Shown here: piece by piece, positions 18,451-29,678 of the stretch
How the letters are laid out: every line of letters begins with the position of its first letter
How positions within the stretch are numbered: position 1 is the stretch's first letter
Source of the DNA: Chloroflexota bacterium
GTDB taxonomy: Bacteria > Chloroflexota > Dehalococcoidia > Lucifugimonadales > Australimonadaceae
DNA length: 33,289 bases
Assembly: GCA_022561985.1 (NCBI GenBank)
Contig: JADFQE010000015.1
Coordinates: 1-33,289, forward strand
Direction of reading: 5' to 3'
Translations under genes and position numbers: made by a program
Notes under the pieces: generated by a model
The model's database searches: none
Seen by the model: only the letters and a program-made list of their open reading frames with translations
What the model was told of the DNA's origin: nothing

Positions 18451-18969
18451 ATGAGCGAGCGCGTCGTGAGCGTCTCGCCCGAGCTGTTCCGCTCGGCGTG
18501 GCGCAAGTTCGCCACCGGCGTGAGCATCGTCACGACCCGGCAGCCGGACGGCGGCGCCTACGCCACGACCGCGAACTCCGTGGCCTCCGTCTCCCTCGAC
18601 CCGCTGCTGGTGCTGGTGAGCTTCGGCAACGGCGGCACGACGCATGCCAACCTCGTGCGGGAGCGGCGCTTCGGCATCAACATCCTGCGCGACGACCAGG
18701 CCGCCATCGCGCAGCGCTACGCGGCGAGCCCACCGGAGGAGCGCCGGCTTCTCCCCCCGGCGCACCGGCTGCTGCCCAGCGGCACGGCGTTGCTTAACGA
18801 TGCGCTCGCGCGGATGGACTGCCGCGTGGTGAGCGACGTGGGCGCCGGAGACCACACGGTGTTCATCGCCGAGGTGGAGCACATCGAGGTGAGCGGCGGC
18901 GCGCCTCTCATCTTCTACGACGGCCGGTACGGCACCGTCGCCGAGGCGGGCCCGGAGCCAACGCCGTGA
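18451..18969 (+). CDS. Flavin reductase family protein (FMN-binding split barrel)
   Basis: FRSAWRKFATGVSIVTTRQPDGGAYATTANSVASVSLDPLLVLVSFGNGGTTHANLVRERRFGINILRDDQAAIAQRYA. Confidence 0.92.
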   Translation: MSERVVSVSPELFRSAWRKFATGVSIVTTRQPDGGAYATTANSVASVSLDPLLVLVSFGNGGTTHANLVRERRFGINILRDDQAAIAQRYAASPPEERRLLPPAHRLLPSGTALLNDALARMDCRVVSDVGAGDHTVFIAEVEHIEVSGGAPLIFYDGRYGTVAEAGPEPTP

Positions 18970-20806: not shown

Positions 20807-20894
20807 GGAGGGATGCCGGAGCGGCCGAACGGTCACGTCTTGAAAACGTGCGGGTGTCACAGCCCCGTGGGTTCGAATCCCACTCCCTCCGCCA
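20807..20894 (+). tRNA. tRNA-Ser(UGA), with encoded CCA
   Basis: GGAGGGATGCCGGAGCGGCCGAACGGTCACGTCTTGAAAACGTGCGGGTGTCACAGCCCCGTGGGTTCGAATCCCACTCCCTCCGCCA: acceptor GGAGGGA/TCCCTCC, anticodon stem CACGT/ACGTG with loop CTTGAAA (anticodon TGA, 20841-20843), long variable arm, TTCGAAT T-loop. Confidence 0.97.
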
Positions 20895-22185: not shown

Positions 22186-22737
22186 CTAGGTCTTGGGCTG
22201 GAGCAGCCACTCCTGCTCGCGGGCGGGCCCGCTCAGCCACGACTCCACCCACTCCTGCCTGCCCTCGGCCGGCTCGACGCCCAGGCCGTCCGCCAGGCGC
22301 GTCATGAAGTTGAAGGTGCACGTGATGAGCACGACCGACAGGATCTGCTGGTGCGTGAGGCCGGCTTCCTCGAGGCGCGCGAAGTCCTCGTGGTTGGTGT
22401 CCGAAGGCGTGACCGTGAGCTTGAAGGCGTAGTCGAGCATGGCACGCGTGGGCGCATCGAGGTCGGCGTTCCGGTAGTCGTGCATCACGTGGCTTGCGAG
22501 CTCCGGGTCCTCCGAGTGCTGACGGAGAAACTCTCCGTGGGCCATCGTTCAGTACCGGCAGTGGTTGGCCACGGAGACGGTGGTGGCGATGGCCTCCTCC
22601 TGCACCCGGGTGAGCGCCGAGGCACCGAACGTGATGCCGCGGTTCATCCCGCGCACGGCCGCAAGGGCCGTCTCGTTGATGGACATGCACTTGATGATGG
22701 GCGAGAGCTTGACGTCTGCTTCCGTGATCCAAGACAC
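22186..22737 (-). CDS. Candidate selenoprotein: AhpD/carboxymuconolactone decarboxylase-family peroxidase-related protein with in-frame TGA (Sec) in a CxxU motif
   Basis: ORFs 22549-22737 (ending ...TTVSVANHCRY*) and 22186-22545 (TMAHGEFLRQHSEDPEL...LDYAFKLTVTPSDTNHEDFARLEEAGLTHQQILSVVLITCTFNFMTRLADGLGVEP) are the same frame, separated by one TGA (22551-22549) at the usual second Cys of CxxC. Downstream hairpin ACGGAGA-GTT-TCTCCGT. Confidence 0.8.
22522..22538 (-). promoter_or_regulatory. Candidate bacterial SECIS hairpin
   Basis: Minus strand TGA-ACGATGGCCC-ACGGAGA-GTT-TCTCCGT: perfect 7-bp stem; first loop nucleotide is G, 18 nt downstream of UGA. Confidence 0.65.
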
Positions 22738-22860
22738 GCGAACCCCTCCGGCCGGCGGATAACGGCAGTCTAGGGTCGGGCCGCAGACGGGTCAAACGCA
22801 CCCGCGAGGCTGGCGGCCGCGCACGTCCGAGTGGCCGCGCCGGGCGAAGTGCGGTATAAC

Positions 22861-28556: not shown

Positions 28557-29678
28557 ATGGCGGGCGTGCGTATCACCAAGCTCGAATGGAGAGGCATCCG
28601 GGTCCCGCTGCGGGACGTGCCGGCCGGGCGTGAGGCCGTGCCCGAGCGCCACGCGCTGCTGGTCTGGATCCACACCGACGACGGCCTCGTCGGCGTGGGC
28701 GAGGCATCGCCCGTCGCGCCGGGCCGTCCGGAGCACACCGGCGACGTCGCGAGGATCCTCCACGACCTCGCCCCCTCCGCCCTCGGCCTCCCACCGTCCG
28801 TCGCCCTCGGCGTGCTCCTCGCGCTCGCGCCCCAGACCGAGGCCGGGGACGCCGCGCGCTTCGGCCTGGAGACGGCGGCGCTCGACCTGATCGGCAAGCG
28901 CTCCGGCCGCCCCATCGTCACGCTCCTCGGCGGCGTCATCGACTGGGTGGGCATGCACGCGAATATCGGCTTCGAGGAGCCCGCGGAGGCCGCGCGCCAG
29001 GCGGCCGAGGCCGTCGCCCGCGGCTTCCGCTCGGTCAAGGTGACCCTCGGCTCGCACGACCCGGAGGTGGACGTCGAGGTCGTGCGCCTGGTGCGGACTG
29101 CCATCGGGCCGGCGGTGAGGCTGCGGGCCGACGCCGACGAGGTGTGGTCGCCGGAGCGCGCGATCGACGTGCTCTGCCGGCTCGGCCCCTACGACCTCGA
29201 CCTCGTCGAGCAGCCCGTCTTCGCCCAGGACCTCTCCGGCATGGCGCAGGTCCGCAGGGCGGCGCCCATGCAAGTCGCGGCCGACGAGTCCGTCGCCTCG
29301 CTGGAGGACGCGCAACGGGTGATCGACGCGGACGCGGCCGACGTCCTCGTGGTGAAGCCGTCGCGCGCCGGCGGGCTCTACGCCTCCCGCGCCATCATGG
29401 AGCTCGCCCGCGACCACGGCCTCGGCAGCATCGTGAGCTCCTCGTTCGAGACCGGGGTGGGGATCGCGGCGTCGCTGCACGTCGCGGCCTCCCTCGGCCC
29501 GGCGTCTATGAGCGGCATCGCGTCGGGAGCGGCGCTCGAGCACGACATGCTGACCCAGCCGCTGGTCCCGGTCCGGGGGCACATCACCGTGCCGCAGATG
29601 CCGGGCCTGGGCGTCGAGGTCGACCTCGATGCCGTCAACCACTACACCACCGACCTCGCCGGCGTGGTGATGGGCTGA
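28557..29678 (+). CDS. Enolase-superfamily protein (mandelate racemase/muconate lactonizing enzyme-like)
   Basis: VRITKLEWRGIRVPLRDVPAGREAVPERHALLVWIHTDDGLVGVGEASPV...RSVKVTLGSHDPEVDVEVVRLVRTAIGPAVRLRADADEVWSPERAIDVLCRLGPYDLDLVEQPV...VAADESVASLEDAQRVI. Start may be GTG 28566. Confidence 0.92.
   Translation: MAGVRITKLEWRGIRVPLRDVPAGREAVPERHALLVWIHTDDGLVGVGEASPVAPGRPEHTGDVARILHDLAPSALGLPPSVALGVLLALAPQTEAGDAARFGLETAALDLIGKRSGRPIVTLLGGVIDWVGMHANIGFEEPAEAARQAAEAVARGFRSVKVTLGSHDPEVDVEVVRLVRTAIGPAVRLRADADEVWSPERAIDVLCRLGPYDLDLVEQPVFAQDLSGMAQVRRAAPMQVAADESVASLEDAQRVIDADAADVLVVKPSRAGGLYASRAIMELARDHGLGSIVSSSFETGVGIAASLHVAASLGPASMSGIASGAALEHDMLTQPLVPVRGHITVPQMPGLGVEVDLDAVNHYTTDLAGVVMG

Follow-up and report, generated by a model that had tools for sequence, protein, structure and literature searches.

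An AhpD-like gene interrupted by one in-frame UGA codon in a SAR202/Dehalococcoidia-type bacterium: very probably a further member of a known selenoprotein family

On the minus strand of the 33,289-nucleotide stretch of Chloroflexota DNA analysed here (the window; contig JADFQE010000015.1), two short open reading frames follow one another in the same frame, and the question they raise is whether they represent two genes, the remains of a broken one, or a single gene in which an internal UGA codon is read as selenocysteine (Sec). A standard ORF list gives them as 22737-22549 (62 aa, GTG start, ending at the UGA) and 22545-22186 (119 aa, ATG start), with only the UGA and a single Thr codon (ACG) between them. 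Read together, positions 22737-22186 form a single frame of 183 codons, whose only interruption is the one UGA at 22551-22549, and read-through yields a product of 183 residues with the motif ANHCRYUTMAHGEF. The proposal of the initial annotation, that an ORF caller had cut one gene in two at a TGA followed by one Thr codon, is borne out by this frame and by the retention of the UGA in relatives. The Chloroflexota homologues start at the same position, and in most of them Ser-Trp comes after the start codon. The features of the locus are the following:

22186..22737, minus strand: predicted AhpD-like (TIGR01926 peroxidase-related) selenoprotein gene, GTG start, 183 codons plus a TAG stop; based on the frame, the TIGR01926/PF02627 scores and homologues of the same extent.
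22549..22551, minus strand: in-frame UGA, codon 63, predicted selenocysteine at the second position of CxxU (C60-R-Y-U63); based on the codon count in 109 homologues and on alignment to 3c1l, 2pfx and 2prr.
22522..22538, minus strand: predicted bacterial SECIS hairpin with a 7-bp stem (ACGGAGA/UCUCCGU) and the apical loop GUU (22531-22529); based on the fold, the comparison of Sec with Cys members and covariation.
22745..22749, minus strand: Shine-Dalgarno-like GGAGG, preceding the GTG start by 7 nt; based on the sequence.
22186..22545, minus strand: shorter ORF of 119 aa from an internal ATG, without the CxxU; a product of standard callers and not an independent gene, as its start is not conserved.

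For profile searches of the joined product, the UGA was read as Cys. The product belongs to TIGR01926 (peroxidase-related enzyme), with 115.2 bits for a cut-off of 81.8, and also exceeds the cut-off of PF02627 (CMD; 33.9 bits, cut-off 23), in agreement with its original description as an AhpD/CMD-type peroxidase-related protein with CxxU at the position of the CxxC. It lies outside the canonical AhpD profile TIGR00777, against which it reaches 12.4 bits for a cut-off of 191.95. The best solved relatives of the product are 3c1l, 2pfx and 2prr, and residue alignment places the UGA opposite the second Cys of the CxYC in each of them, so that the alignment to a conserved Cys, which had been put forward as a check, is found both with the TIGR01926/PF02627 relatives and with the PDB structures. 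The structure model, whose confidence is moderate (mean pLDDT 71.8), finds its closest folds in 3c1l/2pfx, with a TM of 0.69.

When 85,462 species genomes were scanned with the protein, 14 relatives were obtained, 13 of them from Chloroflexi, SAR202 or Dehalococcoidia and the remaining one labelled Deltaproteobacteria. The UGA is present in all 14 and the frame is open through it in 13, at identities of 89-91% (two relatives), 52-67% (ten Chloroflexota loci) and 50% (the one labelled Deltaproteobacteria). A sample of 400 Chloroflexota genomes contributed 95 further matches (L035-L129), in which the position corresponds to Sec at 58 sites and to Cys at 37. Across the resulting 109 homologues, the codon at position 63 is TGA in 72, TGC in 29 and TGT in 8, and no other codon occurs. 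Three changes suffice to explain the distribution of Sec and Cys on a quickly built tree, whereas shuffled labels require 31 on average, a clustering to which near-copies add; because so few changes are needed, the Sec/Cys state looks like an old, stable trait. No match was found in the two genomes sampled from the same family or in those listed from the same order, and the presence of the gene within its lineage is therefore patchy.

The UGA could be taken as a genuine stop, in a pseudogene or through a sequencing or assembly error that replaced a Cys codon. This reading can draw on the fact that UGA is the ordinary stop of 10 of the 26 listed window genes, on which ground a genome-wide reassignment of UGA was rejected, and on the relative from the Chloroflexi isolate TK10-74A (L033:2808-3306), which carries a one-base frameshift upstream of the UGA. 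This frameshift reflects either a recently formed pseudogene or an error of assembly, and the same copy has retained the UGA as well as a SECIS stem with compensating changes. Against a genuine stop, however, the homologues sharing the UGA come from many independent assemblies and have TGC or TGT as sole alternatives, and the window copy presents no frame damage besides the UGA. Moreover, against L020 and L021, the codons ahead of the UGA have a dN/dS of about 0.07-0.08 and those behind it one of about 0.22-0.35; both ranges lie well below 1, which at the level of codon comparison indicates that purifying selection is acting on both halves. The decay named in the initial annotation as the mark of a pseudogene is thus not seen in the window copy, and a genuine stop, to which scarcely any probability can be given, appears already refuted by conservation. 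Less credible still is an arrangement of two genes, in which a short N-terminal peptide would be followed by a separate 119-aa protein translated from the ATG after the UGA. Although this ATG is placed just one codon past the UGA, it is replaced by a Val codon (GTA/GTT) in four relatives (L028-L031), so the internal start is not conserved, and the short form would lack, as had been anticipated for the downstream ORF, the redox Cys, with it the CxxC/U site, and the first helices that define the family.

The selenoprotein reading calls for a hairpin after the UGA, and the sequence immediately 3' of it is ACGGAGA-GUU-UCUCCGU. When the U of the UGA is counted as base 1, the apical loop begins at base 21, and its first base is G. 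Its position directly 3' of the UGA and its small, G-containing loop are those of a bacterial SECIS, as which the hairpin is predicted. When a SECIS-type hairpin is defined by a stem of at least 5 pairs, a G within the first two loop bases and a loop start between bases 17 and 37, it is present in 97% of the Sec members versus 35% of the Cys members, and stem scores also differ between the two groups (p = 2e-16), both comparisons being uncorrected for relatedness. Within a set formed by the window and its 14 nearest relatives, two-sided changes affect three of the seven stem pairs (C-G to U-A; G-C to C-G; A-U to G-C and to C-G), paired cells make up 96.4% of the stem alignment versus 37-61% for slid partners, and the covariation score was reached by none of 500 shuffles. 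The folding energy of the hairpin, taken over 52 nt, indicates no excess stability over shuffled sequence (z = -0.28), and synonymous constraint over the hairpin codons, evaluated against L020/L021 and among L022-L025 on few sites, is not clearly stronger than elsewhere. In other Sec homologues the hairpin is built differently: either its loop (AGUU) is at base 29, or a CGGCGC stem carries the loop at base 21. At least three hairpin layouts follow the UGA among the Sec sites of the 400-genome Chloroflexota sample.

The genome to which the window belongs (2.39 Mb in 153 contigs, 88.7% complete, 3.2% contamination) encodes the machinery for Sec insertion. Profile searches of this genome found SelA (514.8 bits), SelB (335.5 bits) and SelD (390.0 bits), each above its curated cut-off, as well as a tRNA-Sec (68.2 bits, also above the curated cut-off) that ARAGORN identifies as tRNA-SeC with anticodon TCA; the four components that the initial annotation had advised seeking in the same genome are thus all present, although, because the assembly is fragmented, the link of their contigs to the window rests on the bin. 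The selD gene (L019, G000:C37:6788-7708, minus strand) has an in-frame UGA of its own, in ASCAGUAGK, which is also of the CxxU type. Among 80 Chloroflexota genomes with a homologue, selA was found in 47 of the 48 that carry the Sec form. Six of the 80 have no selA match, of which five carry only Cys forms and the sixth (G188), an 84% complete assembly, has a tRNA-Sec. In G238, a single contig that is 99% complete, a tRNA-Sec match of 70.9 bits is accompanied by no selA match and by a homologue with Cys (L062), and this genome has possibly lost the use of Sec and kept the tRNA. Within the window itself, a single tRNA was found, a tRNA-Ser (anticodon TGA) at 20807-20894.

With an intact frame, a UGA that is conserved and exchanges with Cys codons alone, a covarying hairpin, Sec machinery in the genome and membership of the family all evident from sequence, the locus is very probably one gene for an AhpD-like selenoprotein, whose UGA would be read as selenocysteine. 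The alignment of the UGA with Cys, the machinery, the hairpin and the lack of decay all support the selenoprotein reading with which the analysis started. Gene callers using table 11 split and misannotate such a gene and leave out its catalytic residue; read correctly, it gives a SAR202/Dehalococcoidia-type bacterium with a complete Sec pathway an additional redox enzyme, one that contains Sec.

From the perspective of its active site, the product can be compared with AhpD, whose proton relay is formed by Glu118, Cys130, His132, Cys133 and His137, with Tyr in place of His132 in PA0269 (PMC3141380). E48, C60, Y62, U63 and H67 of the product have the same spacing, by which Sec takes the position of Cys133, and E48, C60, U63 (read as Cys) and H67 are invariant in 14 aligned relatives; the Glu, CxxC and His elements of the canonical AhpD relay are therefore all represented. 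In the mechanism that we propose, SelB carrying Sec-tRNA(Sec) would bind the hairpin just downstream and insert Sec at the UGA of codon 63, an insertion predicted from sequence, giving an all-helical protein of 183 residues with the site E48 ... C60-R-Y62-U63-T-M-A-H67. As the counterpart of Cys133 of AhpD, Sec63 would be the likely attacking residue, reducing a peroxide or exchanging with a thiol/disulfide partner, and would then form a selenenylsulfide with C60 as the resolving residue, which a cellular dithiol would reduce, with E48 and H67 acting in the proton relay. The catalytic roles of these residues and peroxide as the substrate are thus assigned by analogy, and a peroxidase-type thiol/selenol redox function may be regarded as reasonably likely.

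A selenoprotein with this site might instead catalyse another reaction, namely selenol-dependent reductive dehalogenation, as in Bmp8, or aromatic breakdown, as in carboxymuconolactone decarboxylase. Among proteins with the AhpD fold are a debrominase (Bmp8) and decarboxylases, and deiodinases offer a precedent for Sec in dehalogenation. Bmp8 is also among the matches of the structure model of the product (6ohj, E 3e-4), and the window holds several genes of degradative type:

18451-18969: flavin reductase.
20654-19635: LigB dioxygenase.
25416-24046: Rieske oxygenase.
28557-29678: MR/MLE enolase.

Degradative genes are abundant in the window between 17491 and 29678. Nevertheless, both genes flanking the selenoprotein gene lie on the opposite strand, so that it shares no operon with degradative genes, its sequence and fold are much closer to the TIGR01926 'peroxidase-related' proteins 3c1l/2pfx, and the combination of CxxU with a Glu and His relay is that of AhpD. 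A Bmp8-like debrominase or a role in aromatic breakdown is possible, though less likely than the peroxidase type and, taken by itself, improbable. A more far-reaching version, to which we give only a very small chance, is that the SAR202-type CRYUT/CRFUT branch as a whole left peroxide reduction and that its selenol serves a different reduction in the degradation of recalcitrant organic matter, such as a Bmp8-like dehalogenation; if true, this would provide a second selenol-dependent dehalogenase fold besides that of deiodinase.

With the peroxidase type as the preferred reading, the product can be placed among known systems. The statement in the initial annotation that AhpD-like selenoproteins are a recognised bacterial family proved accurate, and the CxxU subfamily is itself published: 27 sequences of AhpD-like CxxU selenoproteins (COG2128) were described from the Sargasso Sea in 2005 (PMC1088965) and 299 sequences of 'AhpD-like 1' in GOS in 2008 (PMC2398784), one review lists the 'AhpD-like protein' with COG2128 (PMC9312934), and a 2026 review lists the 'AhpD-like protein, TIGR01926, CxxU' (PMC13188914). 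A search of the openly available literature for SAR202 together with selenocysteine returned passing single mentions only, in two papers. What the present survey adds is that the Sec form of the TIGR01926-like family outnumbers the Cys form in the 400-genome Chloroflexota sample, and the find opens no new kind of system.

NF041238 (AhpD_rel_CFYUT), a model for alkylhydroperoxidase-related (seleno)proteins that corresponds to 'hypothetical protein 1' from the Sargasso Sea, shares with the product the AhpD core and the C-x-Y-U-T motif. Membership of this group was rejected, as the product scores 56.5 bits, below the cut-off of 175, and the model spans 357 positions against the 183 residues of the product. 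The Cys-type TIGR01926 proteins 3c1l (Mlr4105), 2pfx, 2prr and 6k40 match it in sequence and predicted fold over about 120-145 residues, and differ in having CxYC where the product has CxYU. With AhpD of Mycobacterium tuberculosis and PA0269 of Pseudomonas, it shares the relay spacing E-x11-C-x-(H/Y)-C-x3-H, but lies outside TIGR00777 and has Sec for Cys133; no ahpC was recognised next to the gene. A mechanism different from that of the known AhpD-like selenoproteins (COG2128/TIGR01926) is not indicated. The gene belongs to the same family as these, with a predicted Sec second in the CxxU, a predicted SECIS downstream and widespread Cys homologues, and differs from them only as a further SAR202/Dehalococcoidia-type member, not new in kind, with the local motif C-R-Y/F-U-T.
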